This document shows, piece after piece, positions 4,206 through 19,014 of a DNA stretch of 64,000 bases (the stretch's first letter is position 1; each line of letters opens with the position of its first letter). The notes beneath the pieces were generated by a model. It ran no database searches. It saw only the letters and a list, made by a program, of their open reading frames with translations, and was not told the DNA's origin. The stretch spans positions 372,001 to 436,000 of the IMG/VR virus record IMGVR_UViG_3300037297_000066, one strand, 5' to 3'. This DNA is from a virus. A program made the position numbers and the translations under genes.

Positions 4206-5582
4206 ATGCCCTACGCTACTCAGCGAGACAGAGATCCGCACCAGCTGGAAATTGAGAGCTCCCCTTACCCGGTCTCTCCGTTGAATTTGTCCATGACTTC
4301 TGGCTACGAGCCGGGGGTCATCAATTTGACGTGGGATGACGCGGCCCAACTGTTTCAGAATTCTCGGTTTCAGATCATCGGGGTCAACGTTTGGAGGTCT
4401 TTCGACAGCGAGTTCGGTCCTTACGATCGGGTCACGACCTTGCCGGTGGGATCTAATTTCTGGCAGGACCGTACAGACAACGTGCTGATTCCAGCTGAGG
4501 ATGTTTCGGATTCGTTCATCCTCAGAGGAGTTAACTCGACCGGATCGGACTACGGTAGGTACGTATTTCAGACCCAGTATCCTATCGTGAAGGCAGGTTC
4601 CCAGGCGATACCGGCAAACAGTCCTGATGATGTGTTGGTGATGGTGGATGGGGTCCAGGCTCGGGTAAAGCGAGTTGATGGGTTCGCCAAAGAAGTCGAG
4701 CTGGATACCACCAAATACTACAACACCGAGAAGCAGAACCAGGATACCCCTGTCTATCCGGGGGACAACAGCGTGGTCACCTGTGCCTATCGGTACAACC
4801 GAACGCTTCTGAAGACAGACCTAGCACAAAGGGTCTTCTACAGAGTTACCACGGTAGGTCTTCCTGAGGCTTCTGATCTGTCGGCCGCTTGTTGTGAGGA
4901 TCTTCGGGAGACGCCTTTGGAGCGGGCTCCTGTGACCAGCACCTCAGAGATTGAGAAGCTGGACTACATCTGGAGGGAAGGTATTCGACGCAATCGTTGG
5001 ATTCTGTTCCAGGGGGGCGAGCGAGTGAAGGTCTTCATCAAGAAGCATGTAGGGCCTATTTGCCCATGCCGAGGTCCTCACTACGAGAGTTTTCATCAGC
5101 CCAAGAATGATTGCGAGCTGTGTTTTGGGGCGGGTATTTTGGGAGGGTATGAAGGCCCCTACGATATCATCATTGCTCCTGACGATGCTGAGCGTAGGAT
5201 TGCTCAACGGGACGTTGGTCGAACCGTGGAACATACCTACGAGGTCTGGACGGGTCCTTCCCCTCTCCTAAGCCAGAGAGACTTCTTGGTTAAGATCAAC
5301 GGGGAGCGCTACTCAATTGGAGCCGTACGGTTTCCGTCCAATCGAGGAATGGTGTTGCAGCAGCATTTCAATATCAGCCGTTTGGACGAACAGGACATTC
5401 GTTACAGGGTCCGGGTAACGGCTCCTTGTGGGGTGTCTGCCAACGTGGCGGGAGTTGGTCGAGCTCTTCCTGGCATACCTCCTGGCAGTAATGCGTCTGT
5501 CCCCCTCACTGAGAAGTGCAACATTCCTAATGAGCGTGAGATCAGAGGCCGCACTGTGACCTGGAAGAACATCACGTTCTGA
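4206..5582 (+). CDS. Virion structural protein with Cys-rich zinc-binding-like insert
   Basis: 458 aa. Residues ~20-110 look like a fibronectin III-type domain (GVINLTWDDA ... GVNVWRSFDSEFGPY). A beta domain of the recurring VMVDGVQARVKRVDG type follows at ~140-210. Residues ~250-330 contain IWREGIRRNRWILFQGGERV and a Cys-rich stretch with CPC and CELC pairs about 17 residues apart, ending CFGAGILGGYEGPYDIIIAP, which could coordinate zinc. A C-terminal beta domain follows. I do not know a functional name. The neighbourhood (neck, head-tail joining) suggests a collar or adaptor subunit. The start at 4206 is fixed by the hairpin immediately upstream, although that hairpin would partly mask the ribosome-binding site. 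Confidence 0.55.
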   Translation: MPYATQRDRDPHQLEIESSPYPVSPLNLSMTSGYEPGVINLTWDDAAQLFQNSRFQIIGVNVWRSFDSEFGPYDRVTTLPVGSNFWQDRTDNVLIPAEDVSDSFILRGVNSTGSDYGRYVFQTQYPIVKAGSQAIPANSPDDVLVMVDGVQARVKRVDGFAKEVELDTTKYYNTEKQNQDTPVYPGDNSVVTCAYRYNRTLLKTDLAQRVFYRVTTVGLPEASDLSAACCEDLRETPLERAPVTSTSEIEKLDYIWREGIRRNRWILFQGGERVKVFIKKHVGPICPCRGPHYESFHQPKNDCELCFGAGILGGYEGPYDIIIAPDDAERRIAQRDVGRTVEHTYEVWTGPSPLLSQRDFLVKINGERYSIGAVRFPSNRGMVLQQHFNISRLDEQDIRYRVRVTAPCGVSANVAGVGRALPGIPPGSNASVPLTEKCNIPNEREIRGRTVTWKNITF

Positions 5583-5588
5583 TTACCT

Positions 5589-6101
5589 ATGCGGCCTCCT
5601 AAAGTCAAAGTTGGCCGAGTCAACCTCAAGCCTTTGCTCCCTCCCGGGAGTCTGGAGACATTTGATGCTCAGAAGGTCCTTCGGTCTATTTCCAGGGAGG
5701 TGGTGAAGCAGCTCAGAGACAAAATCCTTCAGGAGCCTTTCTCGGACCGGGCCAAAGTAGCGTTGAGCAAGGCCATAGGTGTCACGGTGGGGCCCCGGAG
5801 CATCACTATCACAGCCAAGCACCCGGCCTTCAAGCCTCTACTGGAGGGACGCAAAGCCAGACAGATGACCTGGTTGACCAAGGCTAAGCGCCCCATTCCC
5901 ATCATCACAGAGGACGGTGAGCTGATCTTTCGTTCGGCTACTCCTCGATCGATGCAGAGGGGCAGTTGGTATCATCCTGGAAGGTCTCCCACGACTGTCA
6001 TTGAGCGTGCCCGAAAGGAGGCTCGAAAGAGCGTAAAGAAGAGAATAGTCAAGGCTTTAGCTAGCCACGTACGTAAGACGTACAAGAAGGGATCCAGATG
6101 A
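5589..6101 (+). CDS. Putative head-tail joining/tail completion protein (HK97 gp10-like)
   Basis: 170 aa, very basic at the C-terminus (RARKEARKSVKKRIVKALAS). Residues 10-60 form a helix (VVKQLRDKILQEPF). Then comes a beta region with ITITAKHPAFKPLLEGRKA, followed by IPIITEDGELIFRSA and WYHPGRSP. The W-x-H-PG-x-x-P element followed by a terminal basic helix is the pattern I associate with HK97 gp10-type completion proteins and minor tail proteins. That assignment rests on pattern memory, not a search. It sits in the expected place upstream of the sheath. The next ATG begins two bases beyond the stop codon. Confidence 0.5.
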   Translation: MRPPKVKVGRVNLKPLLPPGSLETFDAQKVLRSISREVVKQLRDKILQEPFSDRAKVALSKAIGVTVGPRSITITAKHPAFKPLLEGRKARQMTWLTKAKRPIPIITEDGELIFRSATPRSMQRGSWYHPGRSPTTVIERARKEARKSVKKRIVKALASHVRKTYKKGSR

Positions 6102-6102
6102 A

Positions 6103-6654
6103 ATGAGTGGTGGTATGGTTGTTTTGGGCAACGTCACGGGGACTCACTTGATAGAGGATATTCAGGTGTCTGTGCCTTATCAGGTGGCTGTGACGCTCAC
6201 ACAAGAAGACGTTGTAAGGTCTCGTGACTTGTGGGTTGCTCTTCAGCAGAGGTTCATAGTCAAGCTCCGAGATTTTCGTCAGGTACCGAATCCTCCTAGA
6301 TCGAATAATGCAACCTCGGCAGATTCTTCAGATCTGTTGAGACTGCAAGAGGAGAATCGGAAGCTTCAATCCGAGCTGAGGCAGTCGAATCAGCGGACCG
6401 ATGGTCTCGAATACAAGCTGGATGCCATCCTAGCGGCCCTAGGAAAGCTTTCTACGGTATCCCCTAGGGGAGAGACCGCTCCCGTTGAAAAGCCTCTCAG
6501 TGAGGCTGTGGGGGGTGACACGCCCATGTTCCTTCCGGAGTTTTCAGGGACTGAGTCGGAGGCTCGTATCAAGGTCAAAACTCAGCAGGAGGAGAGTGGC
6601 AGGGTACAGGAGGCGGCCGCTCTGCTGAGGAGGCTTCGCCAGCAAGAGAAGTGA
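6103..6654 (+). CDS. Coiled-coil structural protein, unknown
   Basis: 183 aa. Residues 1-55 are mixed (VLGNVTGTHLIEDIQVSV..., then a helix RSRDLWVALQQRF). Residues ~72-112 form a clear coiled coil (LLRLQEENRKLQSELRQSN, continuing to LDAILAALGKL). A proline/glycine-rich linker (~115-155) leads to a second charged helix at the C-terminus (QEAAALLRRLRQQEK). It is nearly contiguous with the preceding gene. No family recognised. It may be an oligomeric neck or assembly factor; that is context-based. Confidence 0.6.
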   Translation: MSGGMVVLGNVTGTHLIEDIQVSVPYQVAVTLTQEDVVRSRDLWVALQQRFIVKLRDFRQVPNPPRSNNATSADSSDLLRLQEENRKLQSELRQSNQRTDGLEYKLDAILAALGKLSTVSPRGETAPVEKPLSEAVGGDTPMFLPEFSGTESEARIKVKTQQEESGRVQEAAALLRRLRQQEK

Positions 6655-6689: not shown

Positions 6690-7382
6690 ATGGATCCCAA
6701 ATGGAAGGCTGTTTCCGTCCCTACCAGCAAGACGGCTTGTTCCTGTGACTCTGGAAAAGCTAAATGGCCTTCCAGTTTGGAGGCAGTGTGGCAGAATCCC
6801 ACTGCTTACGACGCTTTGGAGGACGGCCCTTCCTACATGCCCACGAAGACAGCCAGTACAACGGATCGGGCGGCTGTAGCCCGAATGGTTCAGGCCAATA
6901 CGTACGCTGGGCAAAAGTTGGCTGACGAGGTGGGGGGAACCAGGTTAGTATCTCTGCTGACGGTCATGAAGGCTTTGTACCTGATCCACCAGACTCATCA
7001 CTGGAGGACCAACGGGGCGTCCTACTATGCGGACCATTTGTTGTTCCAGCGGATCTACGAAGAGTCTCTGGAGTACATCGATGGGATGGCAGAGCGGGCT
7101 ATAGGGACGTCAAACAACCCTTGGGTGATCTGTCCTATGAAGTTGGCCAAAGGTCAGCTCAATGTCGTACACTTCTTCTGTGAGGGCAATTCTCAACCGA
7201 GCCCTGAGCAAATGGTCAACATCAGCCTCAAAGCGGAGCTGGCTTTCTTGGCTTTTCTGAAGCAGGTTGTAGAGGCTATGAGGCAAGAGGGAAGCTCGAC
7301 GGATGGCGTTGAGGACCTGATTCAGGGAACCGCCAGTAAGCATGAAGAGTTCGTTTACCTGCTGCAGCAGCGGTCCAGGTAA
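6690..7382 (+). CDS. Dps-like ferritin-fold protein
   Basis: 230 aa. Residues ~61-225 match the Dps/ferritin-like four-helix pattern. The core LIHQTHHWRTNGASYYADH then LLFQRIYEESLEYIDGMAER aligns without gaps to the E. coli Dps ferroxidase region as I remember it. H104 matches H51, H116 matches H63, D131 matches D78 and E135 matches E82, while Dps D67 is replaced by Q120. Most iron ligands are therefore present. The N-terminal ~60 residues are an unrelated extension with two cysteines (CSC). Dps proteins form 12-mers that oxidise iron and bind DNA. Here the gene lies between virion genes and just upstream of an actin-like ATPase, so a virion or assembly role is possible. Start chosen at 6690 with AGAGG 6 bases upstream. 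Confidence 0.75.
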   Translation: MDPKWKAVSVPTSKTACSCDSGKAKWPSSLEAVWQNPTAYDALEDGPSYMPTKTASTTDRAAVARMVQANTYAGQKLADEVGGTRLVSLLTVMKALYLIHQTHHWRTNGASYYADHLLFQRIYEESLEYIDGMAERAIGTSNNPWVICPMKLAKGQLNVVHFFCEGNSQPSPEQMVNISLKAELAFLAFLKQVVEAMRQEGSSTDGVEDLIQGTASKHEEFVYLLQQRSR

Positions 7383-7417: not shown

Positions 7418-8428
7418 ATGAGCAAGAAAGAAGAAGGGCTTACTCTTGGGGTAGGTCTAGACATCGGGACCATGAACCTTGTAGGGGCCCGGGAGGTGGA
7501 AGGCAAGACCGTCTTCACACAGGTACGGGACGCCTTTCTGGACCTTGATCCGGAAGCGAAACGATCTCTCAAGATGTCGGGAGTGAACTTTCTGGAGAGC
7601 AACGGGTCCTTGGTGGTGGTTGGGGACAGTGCCTTGACCATGGCCAACCTTTTCAAGAGGGAGGCTCGTCGTCCTTTGAGTCGAGGGGTGATCTCGGCTG
7701 GGGAACTGGATGCTCAAGAGATCTTGAACGTCTTGTTGCTTGAAGTGGTGGAGCAGGCCCGGGAAGAGGGGGAGCACTGCTTCTACTCAGTTCCTGCGCC
7801 GCCTCTTGATGATCCAGGTCAAGACATCATTTTCCACACTGAGATCTTTCGTAAGATCATCAGGGGGCACAAGTACACGGCGCATCCAGCCAACGAGGCG
7901 ATGGCCATCATCTTCAGCCAGTGCGTTGAGGAGCAGTTCTCGGGTTTGGCGGTGAGTTTCGGGGCCGGGATGTGCAACGTGGCCTTGGCCTACAAGGCTG
8001 CTTCTGGAATGGAATTTTCCTTGGCTCGGGGAGGAGACTGGGTGGATTCTCAGTCGGCCCGAGCGGTGGGCAAGACTGCTAGTCAGATGTGTGCCATCAA
8101 GGAAAAGGGAGTGAACCTGGCTCAACCTCAAGGTAGAGAACAGGAGGCTCTGGCTCTCTACATTCGCTCTTTGATCAACTACTGTCTCCAGAACATCGTT
8201 GCTCAGTTCAAGAAGGTTCGAAACGATGTGTCGTTGCCTGATCCGATCCCCTTTATCGTTTCGGGAGGATCTTCGATGGCCGGCGGGTTCTTGGAGTTGT
8301 TCAAGGATGAGTTCCAGCAGGTCAAAGGGTTCCCCATCGAAATCAGTGAGATTCGAGCAGCCGCCGATCCCATGACAGCCGTGGCCGAGGGGTTGTTGGT
8401 GCTCGCCAAGCAGGAACACGAAGAGTAG
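7418..8428 (+). CDS. Actin/MreB-superfamily ATPase (phage actin-like protein)
   Basis: 336 aa, the size of MreB/ParM proteins. ASKHA-fold landmarks appear in order: phosphate-1 loop GVGLDIGTMN (D15-T18), connect-1 PANEAMAII (~157-164), phosphate-2 loop VSFGAGMCN (~179-187), an MreB/FtsA-like GGDWVDSQSA (~205-214), and adenosine loop VSGGSSMAGGF (281-291). The usual Asp of phosphate-2 (D-x-G-x-G) is Ser180 here, so hydrolysis may differ from the norm. No signal peptide or obvious membrane helix. Actin-like phage proteins can form filaments that move or position particles or DNA; which function applies here is unknown. GAGGA is 5 bases from the ATG. The next gene starts with GTG one base after the stop, so it shares the transcript with tail genes. 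Confidence 0.85.
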   Translation: MSKKEEGLTLGVGLDIGTMNLVGAREVEGKTVFTQVRDAFLDLDPEAKRSLKMSGVNFLESNGSLVVVGDSALTMANLFKREARRPLSRGVISAGELDAQEILNVLLLEVVEQAREEGEHCFYSVPAPPLDDPGQDIIFHTEIFRKIIRGHKYTAHPANEAMAIIFSQCVEEQFSGLAVSFGAGMCNVALAYKAASGMEFSLARGGDWVDSQSARAVGKTASQMCAIKEKGVNLAQPQGREQEALALYIRSLINYCLQNIVAQFKKVRNDVSLPDPIPFIVSGGSSMAGGFLELFKDEFQQVKGFPIEISEIRAAADPMTAVAEGLLVLAKQEHEE

Positions 8429-8429
8429 C

Positions 8430-9605
8430 GTGTACTACTTTCTCACCAACTCCCTTAGGAACCGTTTGATTCTGGAGCTGCAGGATTCGTTTTCGAAGCA
8501 TGCTCTCTACAAAAAGATCGTTCCTAACATCCAGAACAAGTACGCCTTCAAAGAGCGGCCTCAGTTTGGGGTAGTGGTCAAGGGAGCCAGCGGAAACAAA
8601 ATCCAGCTCTCGGCGGACAACTTCATTGGGGAAGTACTGAGCCATGTCATGCTGGCGTATGTGGGGGAACATCAGTTTCCCTTGGAGTGGGTGAGAGAGG
8701 ACCTGAATAGAGTTAGGGCAGCAGGAGGTTTCCCTTCTCCTCCGGGGATCTACTATATCGAGGTTCTTCAGGCTCCAACCAATCCGACAGAGCCTGGGTT
8801 TTTCGCTATCGACCCTCTTTACACGCAGCCTGATGAAGCGGTTCTGGTTTTCCAGTCGGGAATTGAGAAAGAGGCCCAGCTTCAGAACGTACCCGTTCAG
8901 GACACTGTGCGGATCTGGGAGAACAACAAGCGGCTTCTCATCGAGGGAACGGACTACATCGTCAATTATGAGACGGGGGCGGTGGCTGTCTTGCAGTCGT
9001 TCCCTCCTGGGACTACTTGGATTGCTCAATACCGTTATGCTGGGGAGTCCCAAGGTCCTATTCCCTTCTACTGGAACAGGGCGGACTTCGAGAGCATTCC
9101 GGGGGTGGTACTGGCTTTTGGAAAGAGAGCTGTTGAGGGGGATACGGTGGCTGTGGTTGTCTACCAGGATAGGGTAGGCACAGCCAAGGCTTATGGAGGG
9201 CAATTCGAAGCCTCTTTTGATTTGGATGTTATGGCTCGTGATACCGAGCAGGTGGGGGAAATCGCCGACATGATCTTCATGTACCTCATGGCGGAGAAGC
9301 GTCCGATTCTGAGTGAAGAAGGTCTAGAGATCATGGACGTCTCTATGGGGGGTGAGGCTGAAGAAGTGATGGATGAGAGTGGAGACAACTACTCCTATAC
9401 CGTTTCCATGTCGGTACAGATCCAGTCGGTGTGGGAAATTCATATTCCGCAACCTCTCACCATCAGCAGAGCTACTCCTGTGACAGCTGCGGGGGATTCC
9501 GATCCTTCTCAACCTTCAGGACTTGTGGCCAGGGCGGACAAGCTGTTTTTCCAGACCACCCCCATTCTGGCCAACAGAAATCCAGATTACGAACGCATCG
9601 GATGA
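8430..9605 (+). CDS. Neck/tail-terminator-like structural protein
   Basis: 391 aa from a GTG at 8430, one base after the upstream stop. The N-terminal ~110 residues are helical and mixed (FLTNSLRNRLILELQDSF). Residues ~140-210 contain the beta module VRIWENNKRLLIEGTDYIV...GAVAVLQSFPPGTT...YRYAG, which recurs in other proteins of this window. Residues ~245-345 hold GQFEASFDLDVMARDTEQVG, a helix (IADMIFMYLMAEKRPIL) and VSMSVQIQSVWEIHIPQP, similar in style to tail-terminator/joining proteins encoded just upstream of sheath genes. Terminator function is inferred from this style and the position. Confidence 0.45.
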   Translation: MYYFLTNSLRNRLILELQDSFSKHALYKKIVPNIQNKYAFKERPQFGVVVKGASGNKIQLSADNFIGEVLSHVMLAYVGEHQFPLEWVREDLNRVRAAGGFPSPPGIYYIEVLQAPTNPTEPGFFAIDPLYTQPDEAVLVFQSGIEKEAQLQNVPVQDTVRIWENNKRLLIEGTDYIVNYETGAVAVLQSFPPGTTWIAQYRYAGESQGPIPFYWNRADFESIPGVVLAFGKRAVEGDTVAVVVYQDRVGTAKAYGGQFEASFDLDVMARDTEQVGEIADMIFMYLMAEKRPILSEEGLEIMDVSMGGEAEEVMDESGDNYSYTVSMSVQIQSVWEIHIPQPLTISRATPVTAAGDSDPSQPSGLVARADKLFFQTTPILANRNPDYERIG

Positions 9606-9608
9606 ACC

Positions 9609-10043
9609 ATGCCCAAGTACACTTTCGAGTGTGATTCCTGCAACGTTAGGTTCACTCGGACTCTCAAAATGGGAGAACACCTGACCTGCGCCTGTCCCAA
9701 GTGCAGAGAGCAGGTTCCTAGGTTTTGGGATGGACAGGGGTTTTCCTTCGATTTTGCCGAGGGAGGGAAGGCCCCGGCAAACAGTGGGGTGACCAAGCAC
9801 GATTATCCGACGGCGGACCAGGCTGTGGGAAGGTCCGCCGACAAACGGTGGGCAGAGTACCGAGAGCGGGAAAAGGTGAAAGAAAAGGTTCGGGAGAGGG
9901 GGGGTTCCAGAGCCTTGAATCGGACAGACTCCCCGGAAATAAACGGAAATCGTAGCTATATCCAGTACACAGCCATAGGAGAAAAGGAGCTCCAGGGACG
10001 TCGGGAAGTGGTGGGTAAGCTTAAGCAGCTAGAGCCTCGATAA
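9609..10043 (+). CDS. FmdB-like zinc-ribbon protein
   Basis: 144 aa. The N-terminus MPKYTFECDSCNVRF...CACPKCREQVPRF matches the FmdB-type zinc ribbon: MPxYxFxCxxC, about 20 residues, then CPxC. C8/C11 and C30/C33 are the likely ligands. The remainder is charged and helical (WAEYREREKVKEKVRERGG). Single zinc-ribbon proteins of this kind often lie in phage structural operons without known function. ATG is three bases beyond the upstream stop. The 120-base gap downstream, before the sheath gene, holds a small hairpin. Confidence 0.7.
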   Translation: MPKYTFECDSCNVRFTRTLKMGEHLTCACPKCREQVPRFWDGQGFSFDFAEGGKAPANSGVTKHDYPTADQAVGRSADKRWAEYREREKVKEKVRERGGSRALNRTDSPEINGNRSYIQYTAIGEKELQGRREVVGKLKQLEPR

Positions 10044-10163: not shown

Positions 10164-13100
10164 GTGTCTCTAGGACCATTGACGACCTACGTTCCCCCTG
10201 GCATCTACACCCGCACCCTGACCGAGGTCAACGCAGCCAACTTGGTGGCTGGCCTTCGGATCCCCGTTGTCATTGGCGTGGGACAGGAACAGCTGGAGCA
10301 ATCCGACCTGGAAATGGTCAGGGGTAGCTCGGCTACTCTGGACCAGCAAATCGTCAGCGAGGACGTCTCACAGTCTTTCGTGGTGGACAACTCCAATCCT
10401 CTGGTTCCCGTTCTGGGACCCACGGATGGGACCTTCACGACGGTTCGAGTTCGCAACTACCCCATTGTGGATGGACAGGGCTTTGGCCGAGTGACCAACG
10501 ACGTTCGTTCGGTCAGTGCCACGGTCAACGGGACGCCTGTGGCCATCGGAAGTGTGCAGGGTACCAACGGATACATCACCTTCCAGGTACCGCCTCAGGT
10601 GGGGGACGACGTTCGGGTCACCTATTACTTCCACCGAGGAGACACTGCTTTCACGGATACCGTGTCTGACCAGGTGACTCCGACCACAGCGGACCTGACC
10701 ACTCCTGCAGTGGCCAACTTCGCTTTCACGACAGGTATCAGCGACACCTTCGTGATCGGAGTGGATGGTACTGACAGTACCGTTGTCTTTACCGAGGGCA
10801 TTCACACAGCTCTAGCCGTCAAGACCATGATCGACGCCGCTCTGATCACTGGATTGACTACGGCAGTCTTCACGGACAACGAAGGCAATGACCACGTCAC
10901 TCTGACGGCGGCTCAGAAGCTGGTGATTGGTACGGGCAACGCTAATGGAGCTTTGGGCTTCACGGCGGGGGCTTCCACCAGTCGAAACGTCAACTTCCGG
11001 GTGTTCCAGCGTCCTATCGTGGATGGAACGGATGGAGGGATCACCACCACAGACCCAAGCAAGGTTGTGGTGCTAGTGAACAACTCTCAGGTCATTCCCA
11101 CTGCTGTGGATGGCACCAACGGAATCGTGACTTTGCCGATGGCCCCTGCGGCTGGAAGCACCGTCACAATTCAGTACTGGGCCAACACGTGGCAGGACAC
11201 CTTCGACTACTTGCCCAACACGCTGGTTTCGACGGTGACCCGTTGCGGGTTCTCGCCTGGTCGTTCGGACTACATCCAGAACCAGGATTTCGTCATCTCC
11301 AATCCGAGCGAGGATGTCTCGGTGGTCCACTGGGGCTCCAGTGTGGCTGTTTCCTCAGTCCTGAGAACGGCTGGGGCAACCGTCTTCGACGAGACGCAGA
11401 TCCTGGCCTCTTTGGTCGATGACAAGATGTACTTGGCGGAATGCACCCGGGTGGTAGACACCACGGTCGTTCCTGCCGAGACATCTCCCAATGAGTTCCT
11501 GCTCCCGGCTATTCCGACCACAGGCAACGGTCGAGACACGCCGCTTGGGAGCACACTCTACAACACGGTCACCAATGGCCGGATGAACCTGAACACGGAT
11601 CGTCCCGATCTCATCACGGTCTACACTGGTCGAGATCTTCGGGATGCGTTGGGTCGGGATCCCATCGATGTGATCGAAGTGGATGCCCTCAATCGCCAGA
11701 TCACGCTCAAGCAGGCCGTTCCTCCAGATCACAACGCCTACGCCACGTTCTGGTATAGCCGTCTGTCTGACGACACCTACGTGCTGACCAACAAGGTGGC
11801 TGGAGCCGTTGGTACAGGAGAGTACGAGGTATTCAGTTCCGTTCAGAACAACAACCTCTTGCAGGTTCTGTTCGGAAGCAAGACGGCTACCGAAGTCATT
11901 CAGTGGCCTCGGGGAGTGGAGAGTATTCCAGATGCCTTCCACACGGGTACGGGAACTGGGTCTCCAGTGGCCGAGACTGTCACTGTTACCTTCGCTTCTG
12001 AGGCAGCCAAGAATGCTGCTTACACTAACGAAGGGGCCGCTCCCTACGAGTTCTTCGCTGGAACTTCGGATCAGTGGGTGACCGTGCTCAACGGCGTGAC
12101 CTACCCTACGGACCTGGATACAGCCGTGGTTGGTCGAATCGTTGGGACTCGGGTGGCTGTGGATGGTTCCGACCAGATCACCTTCACCACGGGCGTCAAC
12201 GACGTTCTGAACCTGACCATCGACGGTACGGACTACACTGTGACTTTCTCAGCAGGCGCTACTGCTGTGGGGCCAGTGGGAACGCCTGGGACGGTCCTTG
12301 CTCAGATCGCTGCGGTCATTCCGACCACACCTGAACTGGTTCAGTTGGGTCCCTCGGGATCTGATGTGATGTTCATCATCCCCTCGTCTTCGACGCCTGC
12401 GGCTTTGCCTGGTGGCTTCGACCATGTCTCTGCGGTCAGCGTCCGTCAGGGTACTGCCGAGACGACTTTGGGCTTTGTGCCTTTCCAGTCGGCCTCGGGG
12501 ACTCCCACGGCAACCAACAAGCCGGCCACCCTTTTGGGTACGGAGACCGGGGACTTCATCATCACTCTTGGCGTGAACGACGAGTTCAAGTTCCGGGTCG
12601 ATGGATTGGAGTACACAGTCACTCTGACGGCGGGCACTCGTACGGCGACCCAGGTGGTTTCGGACATCACGGGTGTGGTTGCTGGGGTGGCTTCTGTGGG
12701 TACCTTGGCCAACTTGGACAAGGTTCGACTCACCAGTACCACCACCAACTCTGGCTCTAGGATCGTCATTCTCGATGGCTCAGCCAACGATACGCTGGGC
12801 TTCACCGAAGATGATTCGGCGAGCTACACGCCTGTCACGGCTCAGGAAGTGGTCAACGAGCTTCTGGCCACGGCCAGTTTCCAGACCGACGGGGTGGCTT
12901 ACGTTTCCACCATCAATGGAAGCCAGTACGTAACCATTGAGTCCAGTGATGTGGGAGCCACTACCCCATCGGCATCGAGCATCGCTTTCACGTCGGTTTC
13001 CAACTCGGCATTCAACACTACCACGGGTACAGGCATCGAGCCTGGCACCAGTGGAGACAATGGTGAGGACGCTCGGGACATTTACACCGTTGCCACGGAC

Positions 13101-14423
13101 CGAACAGACGGCCTGGGTTCTGGTGGAACCGGTGTTCCGGGGCAGACCTACACGGATGCCAAGACGGGCCTGAGATTCACGGTTCTGGAGTCTGCCACGG
13201 GGTCCTACACTCCTGGAGGCACCTTTACTCTGACTGTCAGCCCGACCTGGAAAGTCCATCCTTCGATTCCAAGCCTGCAGTTGGGCGGTCTCGAAGTCAT
13301 CGTCACGGACACGGTGGGTGTGGGAGTGGACGACACGGCCAATGTTCAGGCGTTCAATCCTGGTGGTAGCGAGCCAGCTGTCGGAGACTTCTACTACATC
13401 AGCTATCAGTACCTGAAGCAGGATTTCTCGACTCGGCTGTTCCAAACCTTCAAGGTCATCGAGGCCAACTTTGGTCGTTTGAGTCCTGAAAACAGGGTCA
13501 CCTTGGCTAGCTTCCTGGCCATTCTGAATGGTGCGGTCCTCGTGGGTATCAAACAGGTGCTCAAGGAGTCCAACACCAACCAGGCCAGTGACGCTTCGTT
13601 CTTGGCGGCCCTTCAGGAGCTGACCATTCCGCTGCCTGGCAACGTCAAGCCGGATGTATTGGTGCCTCTCACGACCTCTACGACGGTCTATGGGGCTCTG
13701 ATGCAGCACTGTGAGGTTCAGTCCAACATTCGCAACCAAGCGGAAAGGATGGGCTTCATTGGGTTCGCTTCGGGAACCTCTCCGATCACAGCCCAAACGA
13801 TTGCCAAGAGCTTGCTCAGCAACCGTATCGTGGCTGTGTACCCGGACTCGGCAGTCATTACTGTGACCAATGAACTGGGTGAGAGCAGCGAATCTCTGGT
13901 TGACGGCACCTTCCTGGCTTCAGCTTTGGCTGGTGCGATCGTCAGCCCGGCTGTGGACGTGGCGACTCCGTACACGAGGCGACAACTTGTCGGAATCGAC
14001 CGGCTTCCTCGGGTTTTGGACCCGGTGGAGGCAAGCCAGACAGCAGTGGCTGGTATCACGGTCCTGGAGGATCTCGCAACAACTGTTCGAGTCAAGCAGG
14101 GTCTGACCACGGACATGTCCACGATTCTGACTCGCCTTCCCACGGTGACTCAGATTGCGGACTTCGTGCAGCAACAGTCCCGAGCTACCTTGGATGCCTT
14201 CGTGGGCACCAAGTTCCTCAGCCAAAGGACGAACGAAGTCGAAGTCTCGATGACTTCTCTGTTCAACCAGATGTTGCAGGCAGAGATTGTTGGAGGCTTC
14301 ACGGGAATCAACGCAGAGGTGGATCCCAACGATCCGACCATCATGCGGTTCGAGGCGTTCTACGCTCCGATCTTCCCGCTTTTGTACATCGTCCTCACAT
14401 TCAACCTAAGAGCTAACGTCTAG
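10164..14423 (+). CDS. Tail sheath protein, unusually long, with inserted repeat domains
   Basis: 1419 aa, about two to three times a usual sheath (~400-700 aa). The N-terminus TTYVPPGIYTRTLTEVNAAN and the C-terminus ending RFEAFYAPIFPLLYIVLTFN are characteristic of contractile-tail sheath subunits, as is FIGFASG at ~1200. The C-terminal ~340 residues are the conserved polymerising core. Inserted beta domains explain the excess length. Two copies of a VNGTP...G.ItF..pP..GD.V.V.Y module lie at ~117-170 and ~300-355. Three copies of a TTGVNDxLxLTIDGTDYTV...LGF module resembling the flagellin hook-IN motif lie at ~188-272, ~672-778 and ~797-886. These probably decorate the tail surface. A hairpin follows the stop. 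The tube gene is 7.5 kb downstream, separated by the helicase island, whereas it usually adjoins the sheath gene. Confidence 0.9.
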   Translation: MSLGPLTTYVPPGIYTRTLTEVNAANLVAGLRIPVVIGVGQEQLEQSDLEMVRGSSATLDQQIVSEDVSQSFVVDNSNPLVPVLGPTDGTFTTVRVRNYPIVDGQGFGRVTNDVRSVSATVNGTPVAIGSVQGTNGYITFQVPPQVGDDVRVTYYFHRGDTAFTDTVSDQVTPTTADLTTPAVANFAFTTGISDTFVIGVDGTDSTVVFTEGIHTALAVKTMIDAALITGLTTAVFTDNEGNDHVTLTAAQKLVIGTGNANGALGFTAGASTSRNVNFRVFQRPIVDGTDGGITTTDPSKVVVLVNNSQVIPTAVDGTNGIVTLPMAPAAGSTVTIQYWANTWQDTFDYLPNTLVSTVTRCGFSPGRSDYIQNQDFVISNPSEDVSVVHWGSSVAVSSVLRTAGATVFDETQILASLVDDKMYLAECTRVVDTTVVPAETSPNEFLLPAIPTTGNGRDTPLGSTLYNTVTNGRMNLNTDRPDLITVYTGRDLRDALGRDPIDVIEVDALNRQITLKQAVPPDHNAYATFWYSRLSDDTYVLTNKVAGAVGTGEYEVFSSVQNNNLLQVLFGSKTATEVIQWPRGVESIPDAFHTGTGTGSPVAETVTVTFASEAAKNAAYTNEGAAPYEFFAGTSDQWVTVLNGVTYPTDLDTAVVGRIVGTRVAVDGSDQITFTTGVNDVLNLTIDGTDYTVTFSAGATAVGPVGTPGTVLAQIAAVIPTTPELVQLGPSGSDVMFIIPSSSTPAALPGGFDHVSAVSVRQGTAETTLGFVPFQSASGTPTATNKPATLLGTETGDFIITLGVNDEFKFRVDGLEYTVTLTAGTRTATQVVSDITGVVAGVASVGTLANLDKVRLTSTTTNSGSRIVILDGSANDTLGFTEDDSASYTPVTAQEVVNELLATASFQTDGVAYVSTINGSQYVTIESSDVGATTPSASSIAFTSVSNSAFNTTTGTGIEPGTSGDNGEDARDIYTVATDRTDGLGSGGTGVPGQTYTDAKTGLRFTVLESATGSYTPGGTFTLTVSPTWKVHPSIPSLQLGGLEVIVTDTVGVGVDDTANVQAFNPGGSEPAVGDFYYISYQYLKQDFSTRLFQTFKVIEANFGRLSPENRVTLASFLAILNGAVLVGIKQVLKESNTNQASDASFLAALQELTIPLPGNVKPDVLVPLTTSTTVYGALMQHCEVQSNIRNQAERMGFIGFASGTSPITAQTIAKSLLSNRIVAVYPDSAVITVTNELGESSESLVDGTFLASALAGAIVSPAVDVATPYTRRQLVGIDRLPRVLDPVEASQTAVAGITVLEDLATTVRVKQGLTTDMSTILTRLPTVTQIADFVQQQSRATLDAFVGTKFLSQRTNEVEVSMTSLFNQMLQAEIVGGFTGINAEVDPNDPTIMRFEAFYAPIFPLLYIVLTFNLRANV

Positions 14424-14595: not shown

Positions 14596-17500
14596 ATGGA
14601 GATGGACGCCTCTACCGATTACGACTTCCGTGTTCAGGCAGCTCAGGACGAGGACATCAGCGAGCTAGAGGCCGCTGAGTACATCGTTTTCAACTTGGCT
14701 CTGGATACCTATTTCCGGTACATCGAAGAGGTCACAGGGGAGGAGCCCCCAGAGGATGACGAGAATACTCTGGATGAGGCCCCCGAGGGTGACACCACGA
14801 AGTTGGATTCTCTGGCTTCGGATGGCATTCGACTCTTGAAGCGAGTGGATAGCCGATTCCAAGAAGATGCGGTGTCCATGCTGGATACCAACCTGCCCTC
14901 TGAGACCCACAAGAAGATGCTTCAGAGGGCGTTTCGGCGCCCAGCCAGGTCAAGGGACGCTATCTCTCGTCGAGCTCTCTTGATGCGAACTGTGCTCTCC
15001 AGAGGAGGGCACAAGACCGTCAAAGCGGTCTTCCACAAAACTCGACCCCTTCGTGCTGTCAAAGATGCCTTGGCAGATGCCATGATGGAGGATGCAGGGC
15101 CGGCTTTGCAGAGATTTGCAGCGGTACCGATTCGGAATCCTCGGATCAAGGCTTGGATCAAGGCAGCAGCTTCCGTTACCAGGGAAAGGGATCAGCCCAA
15201 TGCTGCTCCTCTCAACCCCGTGGAGGTGGCCTCTTCGGTAGGTGCCGATCATGCGGAGGCACTTCGGAAGGACACTGTTGACGAAACAGGTCTCCAAGGG
15301 GCGGAAGAGCAAGCCGTTGCTGGGGATGAAAGGGAGAACAGGATTTCCGACATCGAGTCGGAGGCTGCCGAAGCTGCCGCTGAGGTTCTGGCTGATGCCG
15401 GTGAGCCCGATGAGGTTTTGACTCGTAGTGAGGTCATTGGCATTGCTACCGCTGCAGCGGTGGCAGCTTCTACCGACCCTACCGACCCTACCAACATCCC
15501 AGAGCCTCTTAAGCGTCTAGATGACGAGCAGAGAGCAGCGGCCATGACTGACGGCAAGGTCTTGGTGGCGGCAGGGGCCGGGTCTGGAAAGAGCTGGACT
15601 TTGGTGGCCCGGGTCGAGCATCTCATCAAGGATCGAGGCGTCAATCCTGCCAGGTGTCTAGTCACTTCCTTCAACAAGAAGGCCGCTCTAGAGCTCGACT
15701 ACAAGATCGGCAATGTCATTGGTGGGGACATGGCTGACGCTATGTCTATTGGGACCCTTCACGGGTTGTTCCGGCAGTTCATCGACAAGTATGGGACTCA
15801 GGAAGAGCGTATCGCTGTGGGGGTTGATAGGAAAGGTCCCAACGGGTTCGTGAAGGGAGGCGATTCTGTTGCTTCGGCTGTCAACCGGGTGTGGCGCAAG
15901 TGCTATGCCACCCAGAAGGCTGATGGGACGTGGAAGGATGCTGACGCTCCTAGGGTCAAGGATGGAATGCGTGCCAAGACCCAGTGGGCTGGAAACAACG
16001 TGACTCCTGCCCAGGCCATAGAGAAAGCGGCCACGCCAGAAGAGGCTCAGCTGGCTCAGTGGTATGAGTGGTACATGGGTTTCAAAGGGGACCTGGGGAA
16101 GGATTGGGAACCCCCTTGTGGTCGAAAGCTCAGGGAGTGGGAAGGGTTCCTAGCAAAGAAGCGTCTTGGGGGAAGGATTCGTCTTGGAGACTTCGACGAC
16201 ATGTTGGGTATCTTCAAAGACATCCTCAAGAGACAACCGGAAGTGAAGGCCACTGTCCAGGCGGCCTTCGACCACATTTTGGTTGACGAGTGTCAGGATC
16301 TTAATGAGACCCAGAATGAAATTATCATGATGATGTCCGAACACATCACTGATGGTTCTGATGGAAAGTCTCTTTGGATGGTGGGCGACGATAAGCAGTG
16401 CGTGGGTGTAGACACGCCTGTCCAGGTTTCAGCAACCGAGACTGTGCCCGCGGGGGAGCTTCAAGCGGGTGCCACTGTGTTGGCTTACCGCAATGGCAAA
16501 TTGCGTCCCCAGAAGGTGTTGCACGCCAAACATTCCGATTGGCGCACTGGGTACAAGGTCACTACGGAAAGCGGTAAGACGCTTACTATGTCTCCCAACC
16601 ACAAGATTTGGGCACAAGGTCCCGTTCTTGAGGAAAGGCAAGTAGCCGTCTACCTTATGTATCGTCAGGACAAGGGCTTCCGGGTTGGGATCACCAACAA
16701 GTGCCACGACGAGGATTACTACAACTCGTTTGGGGGTCGAGCCTTCATGGAGAAGGCCGAGCGTATGTGGGTTCTTACCGTATGCCAAGACCGTGAAGAA
16801 GCCTTGTTGAAGGAGGCTTCCTACTCTTTGGAATACGGTGTGCCTACGGCAGTGTTCGAGGGGGCCAGCAGGGGTATCAACCAGGATCGGTTGGATGCCT
16901 TGTTTGAGACTTTTGGACATAACGGTAGGAAACTGCTGGCTGAAAAGACTCTGGGTTTTGACCTTCCCCACTGGGTTAGCCAATCTTACACGAAGCATGG
17001 GCGTCTCCGTAGAACCGTGCAGATGACGGCTCATGGATCAAAGGGAAGCCAGGTTGCTTTGGAGTGGTCTGGGGATGACCTGGACGGGAAGTTGGAAGGC
17101 ATCCAGTTCTCCAAGCAAGCTAATGGGCGTCGCCGTCTCCGCAAATGGTTCACCAATTATCGAGAGGCTCTTGAGTTCGCTGAGCAGGTGGCAGAAAGGA
17201 CTGGAGCTGCGTTGTCTCGGCGTTTGTCTACTCCTGAAGGGCCTGTGCGGTTGCTCACTGCTTCTGGGTTGTTCTCTGGAATGCAAGTGGTTGTTAGGGA
17301 CGATGAGGATCCCGAAGCCGTTGCTTTGGAAACCATCGTGTCGGTGGAACCCGTTTCCGAGACGGCCTTCGTGGATCTGGACGTGGAAGATGCTTCCAAC
17401 TTCGTCGGAGGCGGTATTCTTTCCCACAACAGTATCTACGCCTTCCGTGGAGCTCGTCCTGATCTGTTCACCGCCCTGGATGGTAAGGAAGGCTGGAAGA

Positions 17501-19014
17501 CCCGATCCATTCGAACCAACTACCGCTGCCCCCCTGAGATTGTCGAGGCCGCCAACCTTCTCATTGCGAACAACGAGGACCAGATCCCCATGGAGGCCAC
17601 CCCCAATCCAGCTCGGATTCGAGGGATGGCAAGCATGCGGGTAGAGCAGATGCAGGACTGTGAAGGTACGGCTATCTTGGCAGCCAACACCATCAAATCC
17701 GCTCTTGATGGGGACAGTTGCGAGATCTCTGACAATGCGGTCCTGTGCCGTACCAATGCCGAATTGAACATGTTCGAGACGGCGTTGCTGCTTCGAGGCA
17801 TCCCGTACGCTCGCAAAGGAGCCAGCAGCTTCCTTGGGTCTCCAGAAACGGCGGCCTTCTTGGGCTACATCAAGATGGTTTCAGGGGGCACTGACTTTGA
17901 GGGGCAGCAGAAGGCTCTTCGATCTATTCTCAACACGCCGAATCGGTTCTTCGTAGCCCCTGATGCAGCCAAAGCTGCTGTAGACCAGGCGCTTAGAGAG
18001 TACGCTTCAATGGAAAGGATGCCTATCAAGAACGTGGACCCGATGGAAGCCTTGGGTGATGATCGGTTCCGGCGTTCTTTGGCACATGCCTTGACCAAGA
18101 TTGACCGTCCTCGTAGCCGGCGAGAAGAGTTCAAGCTGAGCAAGACGGTCGAGAAGTTAGATGCTTTCTGGGAAGAGGTAGCGGATTTGAGAGAGACCGC
18201 TCAAGCCGAGGAGACCACAACTCACCAATTGTTCGACGCCGTTCTCAGTGTCTCAGGAATCGAGTTGGAGGTGGATCCTAACACGGGAAGGATCACGGGA
18301 GAGAAGCCGGTTACTTTCCGAGAAGCCGTTTCCAACAACTTGAAGGACCAGGGTGGGGAGGACGATGACGCAGGGGCTGAGGATGAAGACAGCTCCATGC
18401 AAGGGTTGGGGAACATTTCCTTCCTCTACGAGCTGGCCAAGCCTGATCCGAATGACCCTGCAGACAAGGCAGCCGATCCTCGAACTCCCTTTGGATTCCG
18501 AGCCAAGATGGAACGAATCAAGGAGCGGGCAAAGGAGCTTCGCTACGACATCACGGCTTGGGACAAGCAACAAGAGGCCAAGCCTCCTGAAGAGCGACAG
18601 CCGCCTCCTGGGGTGTACCTTGGGACCGTGCACTCCACGAAAGGTGCACAGTGGAAGAACACCTTTGTTCAGATGCCCGCTGGCAAGTTCCCTTTCCAGC
18701 CGCCTGCCAAGCCTGGGTCTGAGCCGCCTCCCCCAGAGGTGATCGAGAAGGAGATGCAGCAGGAGCGAAGGCTGGGCTATGTGGCGATCACTCGGGCTAT
18801 CGACAACCTGACCATTCTCTGTCCAAACGAGGTCAACGGGAAGCCTGCAGGGGTTAGTCCTTTCGTAGCCGAAGCGGGGCTACACCTTGGGGAAAACATC
18901 GGAGCAGAGCCCACCTCTCCTGAAGAAGAGCCTCCTGGAGAGCCTTCAAAGGAGGCTTCCGATGATTCGGGTTCGGATTGGGATGGTTACGAAGCTGACT
19001 ACGAGAGGTCCTAG
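14596..19014 (+). CDS. UvrD/Rep-type SF1 DNA helicase interrupted by an intein
   Basis: 1472 aa including a 344-aa intein (602-945); the spliced product would be 1128 aa. Motifs: Q-motif LDDEQRAAAM, Walker A AGAGSGKS (326-333), an Ia-like TSFNKKAALEL, Walker B VDECQD (563-568), motif III VGDDKQ then SIYAFRGA after the intein, motif IV-like TNYRCP, motif V LGTVHSTKGAQWK (~1340), and motif VI RRLGYVAITRA (to 1401). This is an ATP-driven 3'-5' helicase by family. The N-terminal ~300 residues are an acidic, helical extension with no family I know. M3 (ATG 14602) has better Shine-Dalgarno spacing than M1. A replication/repair-type enzyme between sheath and tube is out of place. The next gene starts two bases after the stop. 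Confidence 0.92.
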   Translation: MEMDASTDYDFRVQAAQDEDISELEAAEYIVFNLALDTYFRYIEEVTGEEPPEDDENTLDEAPEGDTTKLDSLASDGIRLLKRVDSRFQEDAVSMLDTNLPSETHKKMLQRAFRRPARSRDAISRRALLMRTVLSRGGHKTVKAVFHKTRPLRAVKDALADAMMEDAGPALQRFAAVPIRNPRIKAWIKAAASVTRERDQPNAAPLNPVEVASSVGADHAEALRKDTVDETGLQGAEEQAVAGDERENRISDIESEAAEAAAEVLADAGEPDEVLTRSEVIGIATAAAVAASTDPTDPTNIPEPLKRLDDEQRAAAMTDGKVLVAAGAGSGKSWTLVARVEHLIKDRGVNPARCLVTSFNKKAALELDYKIGNVIGGDMADAMSIGTLHGLFRQFIDKYGTQEERIAVGVDRKGPNGFVKGGDSVASAVNRVWRKCYATQKADGTWKDADAPRVKDGMRAKTQWAGNNVTPAQAIEKAATPEEAQLAQWYEWYMGFKGDLGKDWEPPCGRKLREWEGFLAKKRLGGRIRLGDFDDMLGIFKDILKRQPEVKATVQAAFDHILVDECQDLNETQNEIIMMMSEHITDGSDGKSLWMVGDDKQCVGVDTPVQVSATETVPAGELQAGATVLAYRNGKLRPQKVLHAKHSDWRTGYKVTTESGKTLTMSPNHKIWAQGPVLEERQVAVYLMYRQDKGFRVGITNKCHDEDYYNSFGGRAFMEKAERMWVLTVCQDREEALLKEASYSLEYGVPTAVFEGASRGINQDRLDALFETFGHNGRKLLAEKTLGFDLPHWVSQSYTKHGRLRRTVQMTAHGSKGSQVALEWSGDDLDGKLEGIQFSKQANGRRRLRKWFTNYREALEFAEQVAERTGAALSRRLSTPEGPVRLLTASGLFSGMQVVVRDDEDPEAVALETIVSVEPVSETAFVDLDVEDASNFVGGGILSHNSIYAFRGARPDLFTALDGKEGWKTRSIRTNYRCPPEIVEAANLLIANNEDQIPMEATPNPARIRGMASMRVEQMQDCEGTAILAANTIKSALDGDSCEISDNAVLCRTNAELNMFETALLLRGIPYARKGASSFLGSPETAAFLGYIKMVSGGTDFEGQQKALRSILNTPNRFFVAPDAAKAAVDQALREYASMERMPIKNVDPMEALGDDRFRRSLAHALTKIDRPRSRREEFKLSKTVEKLDAFWEEVADLRETAQAEETTTHQLFDAVLSVSGIELEVDPNTGRITGEKPVTFREAVSNNLKDQGGEDDDAGAEDEDSSMQGLGNISFLYELAKPDPNDPADKAADPRTPFGFRAKMERIKERAKELRYDITAWDKQQEAKPPEERQPPPGVYLGTVHSTKGAQWKNTFVQMPAGKFPFQPPAKPGSEPPPPEVIEKEMQQERRLGYVAITRAIDNLTILCPNEVNGKPAGVSPFVAEAGLHLGENIGAEPTSPEEEPPGEPSKEASDDSGSDWDGYEADYERS
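16399..17430 (+). other. Intein inside helicase motif III
   Basis: In-frame insertion of 344 codons beginning with Cys602 (CVGVDTPVQ, block A) and ending ILSHN945, followed by Ser946. Removing it restores VGDDKQ-SIYAFRGA, the canonical UvrD motif III. Hint landmarks: block B GKTLTMSPNHKIW (~660-672), block F AFVDLDVEDASNFVGGG, block G ILSHN/S. Catalytic Cys1, block-B His, penultimate His and terminal Asn are all present, so splicing should be active. The centre (~680-905) lacks LAGLIDADG motifs. It contains VAVYLMYRQDKGFRVGIT followed later by EALLKEASYSLEYGVPT, which may be a degenerate GIY-YIG-like nuclease. Confidence 0.93.

Follow-up and report, generated by a model that had tools for sequence, protein, structure and literature searches.

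A volactin-family actin and a tail-bearing partner in the neck and tail gene module of huge phages

PhuZ, a cytoskeletal NTPase encoded by large phages, positions DNA and carries capsids in nucleus-forming jumbo phages (PMC7950403). Phage actins in the literature that we searched, which took in few subscription papers, are AlpC (PMC4446434) and related ParM-type cases; no title there concerns a volactin of phages. A survey of huge phages describes PhuZ tubulins, and the word actin does not occur in it (PMC7162821). In cells, the volactin of Haloferax volcanii acts in cell shape; its filaments contact the membrane by their tips only, and the binding factors are not yet identified (PMC10869688).

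The window, that is, the whole stretch of 64,000 nucleotides analysed here, comes from a virus record of 437,331 bases, in which it spans 372001-436000, and carries a gene for a volactin-family actin (Table 1). Like PhuZ, its product would be a phage-encoded cytoskeletal NTPase of large phages. PhuZ has the tubulin fold, whereas the phage volactin would be its actin-based counterpart: no tubulin (PF00091) was found in 21 records, the window's own genome and 20 related large phage records. Like AlpC with AlpA in prophage CGP3 and like other ParM-type phage actins, the phage actin has a putative adaptor gene nearby. AlpC, however, is of the ParM type and works with a DNA-binding adaptor and alpS sites, whereas here the family is another one, the partner has no recognised DNA-binding domain, and repeat sites were not found. 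VolA of Hfx. volcanii (HVO_2015) and its haloarchaeal relatives belong to the same Pfam family, PF25216, and the SFGAGM form of the phosphate-2 loop is shared with the plasmid members. In the two haloarchaeal loci examined, the upstream neighbour of volactin also has a tail-like C-terminal part. This haloarchaeal partner is a DUF7139 membrane protein, whereas the partner in the window's clade is soluble and encoded in a virion gene module; the C-terminal tail alone is shared.

Table 1. Features of the actin locus, in positions of the window
Feature	Position	Strand	Remarks
Neck or head-completion protein	4206..5582	+	phrog_1004 virion structural protein, E=3e-4; used to select the lineage independently of actin
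Neck-module protein	5589..6101	+	syntenic relatives
Tail-bearing partner, 183 aa	6103..6654	+	N-terminal conserved domain ~1-56, Pro-rich linker, predicted coiled coil ~79-115, C-terminal tail
Conserved C-terminal tail of partner	6523..6651	+	PMFLPE box, spacer, helix VQEAAALLRRLRQ
Dps/ferritin-like protein, between partner and actin	6690..7382	+	PF00210, E=2.6e-5; phrog_3636, E=1.3e-10
Volactin-family actin	7418..8428	+	336 aa, ATG start; PF25216, AF2, Foldseek
Phosphate-1 loop GLDIGTMN, residues 13-20	7454..7477	+	D15, G17, T18 in 58/59 rows, last row truncated
Connect-1 PANEAMAII, residues 157-165	7886..7912	+	E160 matched by motif to the region of the catalytic Glu in MreB
Phosphate-2 loop SFGAGMCN, residues 180-187	7955..7978	+	Ser for Asp; S180 57/59, N187 59/59
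GGDWVDSQ, residues 205-212	8030..8053	+	resembles MreB AG(D/N)xxD; G206, D207, D210 invariant
Adenosine loop SGGSSMAGGF, residues 282-291	8261..8290	+	G283, G284, F291 invariant
Gene after actin, before sheath	8430..9605	+	syntenic; median identity 56% across clade
FmdB-type zinc-ribbon protein	9609..10043	+	PF09723, E=1.8e-7, just under curated cut-off
Tail sheath, very large, 1,419 aa	10164..14423	+	C-terminal part 13002-14420: phrog_2839 tail sheath, E=1.1e-24

Family, fold and nucleotide loops of the phage actin

The original prediction took this reading frame for an actin/MreB-fold ATPase, and profile search and structure prediction both agree. Against Pfam Volactin (PF25216), the product scores 233.7 bits, far over the cut-off of 35 (E=5e-69), with residues 12-330 aligned to positions 3-321 of the 321 in the profile. 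Its score against MreB_Mbl is 18.6 bits, below the cut-off of 27. An AF2 model built on an alignment of the window protein with 54 IMG/VR relatives, 55 sequences in all, has a mean pLDDT of 92.4 and a pTM of 0.89 and supersedes a model from the single sequence with a pLDDT of 35. With this model, Foldseek finds MreB (E=3.6e-14), MamK, BeeR, actin and FtsA as the best matches in the PDB, at identities of 16-19% for the top matches and TM scores of 0.57-0.73 for MreB and MamK. Judged on the predicted model, all best matches have the actin fold, and the leading ones, MreB, MamK and BeeR, are filament formers. Among viral predicted structures, the matches are limited to Hsp70s and distant actin-like proteins, with 9-15% identity at the top. 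phmmer finds no match among PDB sequences, and PHROGs holds no family matching the actin. Haloarchaeal plasmid volactins are 36-37% identical to the phage actin over 96% of its length (E=1e-63 and 4e-60). The product is almost certainly a volactin-family actin and not one of the MreB, ParM or AlpC type. AlpC, the precedent named in the original prediction, belongs to another family.

All five ASKHA loops are present in the order first described, and the Pfam match and their conservation in 59 distinct phage relatives argue against chance. In these relatives D15, G17, T18, G182, G184, N187, G206, D207, D210, G283 and G284 are invariant or missing solely in truncated rows. Position 160 is Glu in 58 of the 59 and Asp in one; we take its catalytic role over from MreB and ParM. 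In the phosphate-2 loop, S180 falls on the Asp in an alignment with a MreB, as had been noticed. The SFGAGM/L form of this loop is found by alignment in phage, Haloarcula, Natrinema and Pseudomonadota proteins, with small variants in Acidobacteriota; the haloarchaeal side of this comparison is formed by the Haloarcula and Natrinema plasmid members, not by HVO_2015 itself. Since the haloarchaeal members and almost every bacterial one in the alignment carry the Ser, it is a trait typical of the whole volactin family. In addition, the connect-1 Glu is retained alongside it, and the volactin filaments of Hfx. volcanii are dynamic in vivo, growing and shrinking (PMC10869688). The Ser is therefore weak evidence for the altered hydrolysis that the original prediction read from it. 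We also dropped the idea that it marks a defective phage ATPase, since its presence in archaeal and bacterial members points away from any defect specific to phages.

Inteins with LAGLIDADG endonuclease domains interrupt two phage actin copies at different sites beside the ATP-binding loops, just before the GGD motif in L059 (5989-8091) and just before the phosphate-2 loop in L073 (4369-6480). Conserved active sites are typical places for intein insertion.

Gene neighbourhood and occurrence

The actin gene lies between neck genes and the sheath gene, which upholds its proposed location in a late structural module, and the phrog_2839 match of the sheath confirms the contractile-tail context. 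The one-base gap downstream is also as described, the actin ending at 8428 and the next reading frame opening with GTG at 8430. On the upstream side the earlier description needs revision: the immediate neighbour is the Dps/ferritin-like gene, and the conserved neighbour, which had been overlooked, is the partner gene beyond it. Relatives of the partner are found upstream of actin in nearly all loci of the window's clade with enough sequence. The Dps-like gene occupies its place between partner and actin only in this phage clade; in more distant phages it is not found there, and partner and actin abut. We considered the Dps-like protein as an obligate partner of the actin and rejected it because the gene is missing from that place in other phage groups. 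Conservation is higher for the actin, at 65% median identity to the window, than for the sheath at 60%, and well above that of the Dps-like protein at 37% and of the partner at 32%.

The product of the gene after actin has no significant family match in Pfam or PHROGs, and a single-protein scan with it retrieved only the same phage. Throughout the clade, the FmdB-type gene stands between this gene and the sheath gene. A search for a promoter specific to the actin gene found none. Further downstream, at 14596-19014, lies a UvrD-family helicase gene split by an intein: helicase pieces at 310-603 and 973-1408 flank an intein splicing domain at 617-945. A gene recognised by eye as coding for a ClpP-like protease stands immediately before partner and actin in members of a distant phage group (L069:227-1392 and L079:4641-5977).

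The original prediction regarded actin-like proteins as rare in phages, which does not hold here. A first IMG/VR scan gave 72 loci with relatives, and a broader one at least 573 stretches with tblastn relatives, some of which are possibly actin-like genes of another kind. In the annotated-phage collection there are two full-length relatives only, both in uncultured huge-phage records (485 and 595 kb). As an unbiased sample, we used 80 contigs picked by the neck gene 4206-5582 and not by actin. In 78 of them the actin follows 1.1-7.4 kb downstream; the two exceptions are contigs that break off 4-5 kb past the neck gene. The tail gene is present in every one of the 80. The family is also found in each of the 21 large phage records examined, most of which were reached via actin matches. 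Within a large lineage of huge phages, the actin gene belongs to the core. One 297-kb contig, G421 (L287), carries at its end (284000-297104) a second set of neck gene, partner, actin and sheath end. Its two actins and two tails were set aside as a natural experiment, as the structural module is in two copies and a duplication or a chimeric contig is likely.

Volactins also occur in cells. Matches to PF25216 that pass the cut-off occur in 7 of 199 genomes sampled from the phylum to which an Acidobacteriota MAG belongs, in 16 of 200 from the phylum of a Hyphomicrobiales (Pseudomonadota) MAG, on haloarchaeal plasmids and, as a control, in the Hfx. volcanii genome. The related genes in bacterial and archaeal replicons have no phage structural genes alongside. 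A quick tree of 109 rows, with SH-aLRT support only, places the window in a phage-only clade of 68 (support 97), whose sister (98) mixes other phages with Pseudomonadota chromosomal genes; two haloarchaeal sequences form a separate branch. A haloarchaeal volactin pattern search found no close viral relative.

The C-terminal tail in phages, bacteria and archaea

The partner is variable in its N-terminus and length and conserved at its C-terminus. Residues 70-107 give a weak match to Trimer_CC (E=0.006), and family searches recognise no DNA-binding domain. The tail consensus consists of P-x-F-(I/L)-P, a spacer of ~20 residues and a helix of the type V-x-x-A-x-x-A-L-R-x-L-R (ALRxLR). A profile of the tail from the window's clade matches 126 of 9,144 reading frames at E<1e-3, and all 126 lie upstream of actin, one per locus; as this profile was seeded with reading frames picked for their syntenic place, the linkage is partly circular within the clade, and matches in other clades are the informative ones. 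In the window's own 437-kb genome the profile matches one place. Across the 21 whole records, the tail stands beside actin in 19 and has no match in 2; G421 has a second actin-tail pair, and G412 one extra, very weak match (E=0.06). In the distant phage partners L069 and L071, the tail match is no better than shuffles, and two other distant partners, L096 and L098, have Cys motifs that possibly bind zinc. The partner in the window's clade has no clear membrane segment. Such a segment is found in 1 of 96 distinct phage partners, and hydropathy adds L068 and L071 outside this set; L068 and L072 are named among the few phage partners that have one.

In Pseudomonadota, the gene just upstream of volactin codes in most loci for a small membrane protein ending in FIPAIQ..TVERSVEDVARKLASMQ or FIPAIQ...RRTVERSVEDVARKLASMQ. 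By hhalign, the phage tail matches the two Pseudomonadota tail sets, from the first and from the second gene upstream of volactin, with P=2.4e-4 and 2.6e-5; one Pseudomonadota tail, that of the first gene in L199, is no better than shuffles. In L195, L198, L199 and L202, two successive upstream genes both end in the FIP/helix tail, which suggests several anchors for one actin. On Haloarcula and Natrinema plasmids, the upstream gene codes for a DUF7139 membrane protein whose C-terminal part holds VDDAVDGLRQLQGG and VDQQVAGLKGLKGG. Full-length matches of these proteins to the tail profile are weak (E=0.046 and 0.007), and with an iterated model the tails of both outscore every one of 2,000 shuffled sequences of equal composition. 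The helix motif seems to be present in two copies in the C-terminal part of these proteins (L167:4869-5822 and L168:4971-5891). For any single haloarchaeal or bacterial protein the similarity is short and weak, with E from 0.007 to 2, and we assign the tail to the DUF7139 proteins tentatively. All cellular partners examined by hydropathy have a membrane segment. The end peptide thus recurs beside the volactin family in bacteria and probably in archaea. DUF7139 (PF23600) is absent from the window's own genome and is not mentioned in the literature searched.

A possible link between filaments and cargo

Our data slightly favour a mechanism in which late actin filaments are captured by the C-terminal tail of an adaptor and are thereby coupled to neck, tail or head cargo. 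The phage actin would polymerise with ATP late in infection, and that it polymerises at all is quite likely. The tail of the partner, with its FIP box and ALRxLR helix, would bind the filament or its end, like the ParR C-terminus on ParM. The tail accompanies the actin family in phages, in bacteria and probably in archaea, and the N-terminal parts to which it is joined are otherwise unrelated; binding to actin is the simplest account of this, and we regard such binding as likely. The coiled coil would cluster several tails, the N-terminal domain would hold a virion component or an assembly intermediate of neck, tail or head, and the filaments would thereby position or move this cargo. Since the anchor in the window's clade is a soluble domain with a coiled coil and its gene lies in the neck module, the most plausible cargo would be a part of the virion or an intermediate of its assembly; we give a virion component about an even chance. 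In cells, the tail on membrane proteins would tether filament ends to the membrane, which agrees with volactin filaments meeting the membrane by their tips (PMC10869688). In phages, the membrane anchor would be exchanged for a soluble, probably virion-side domain.

Two features of the locus weigh against this mechanism: the Dps gene separates partner and actin in the window, and the position in the neck module suits a virion subunit equally. The actin might be an ATP-binding protein that forms no filaments and sits at the head-tail joint, or an assembly chaperone that resembles Hsp70 and shares its fold. Its fixed position from neck genes to sheath would fit such a role, as would the lead of Hsp70 proteins among the viral fold matches. 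In closteroviruses, an Hsp70 homologue is found in the virion. However, the family includes a polymerising actin, the ranking of solved structures favours MreB, MamK and BeeR, no Hsp70 substrate domain is present, and relatives occur in bacterial and archaeal replicons without adjacent phage structural genes; we consider a virion or assembly subunit improbable. If the actin were instead the motor of a ParM/AlpC-like system that positions or segregates DNA, the DNA adaptor would be either the partner or the Dps-like protein, which belongs to a DNA-binding family and adjoins the actin in the window's clade, and replicated genomes would be moved, for example, to procapsids. ParR likewise works through a C-terminal peptide. 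AlpC, too, moves prophage DNA through its adaptor AlpA (PMC4446434). Yet searches around the genes found no array of centromere-like repeats, a DNA-binding domain is not recognised in the partner, although the Cys motifs of L096 and L098 could bind zinc, other phage groups lack the Dps gene at this place, and the actin lies among structural and not replication genes. DNA segregation is therefore unlikely, if a little less so than a virion subunit.

More doubtful than either is host manipulation, in which the volactin would target the membrane, the division or the cytoskeleton of the host, for example by blocking host actin or reshaping the cell. The studied cellular relative does work in cell shape (PMC10869688), and membrane partners are found with cellular relatives and, as in L068 and L072, with a few phage ones. 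The window-clade partner lacks a clear membrane segment, however, and the genes lie in the late structural module.

If the coupling of filaments to cargo by the tail is taken further, archaeal, bacterial and huge-phage volactins may form one modular system in which exchangeable anchors, membrane proteins in cells and a virion-associated protein in phages, share an actin-binding tail, and the phage version would be a core machine that couples filaments to virion assembly in place of a tubulin spindle. This broader proposal is possible and more tentative than the mechanism itself. If it is true, DUF7139 would be the anchor that ties haloarchaeal volactin to the membrane and that has been missing so far. 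The phage cytoskeletons known to date are mostly tubulins, such as PhuZ, and ParM-type actins. The volactin type would add a third kind, belonging to an archaeal and bacterial family of cell-shape actins, that is a core gene of huge phages and whose gene order is tied to the head-tail joint. A lineage of huge phages probably builds its own actin filaments and hooks them to cargo.
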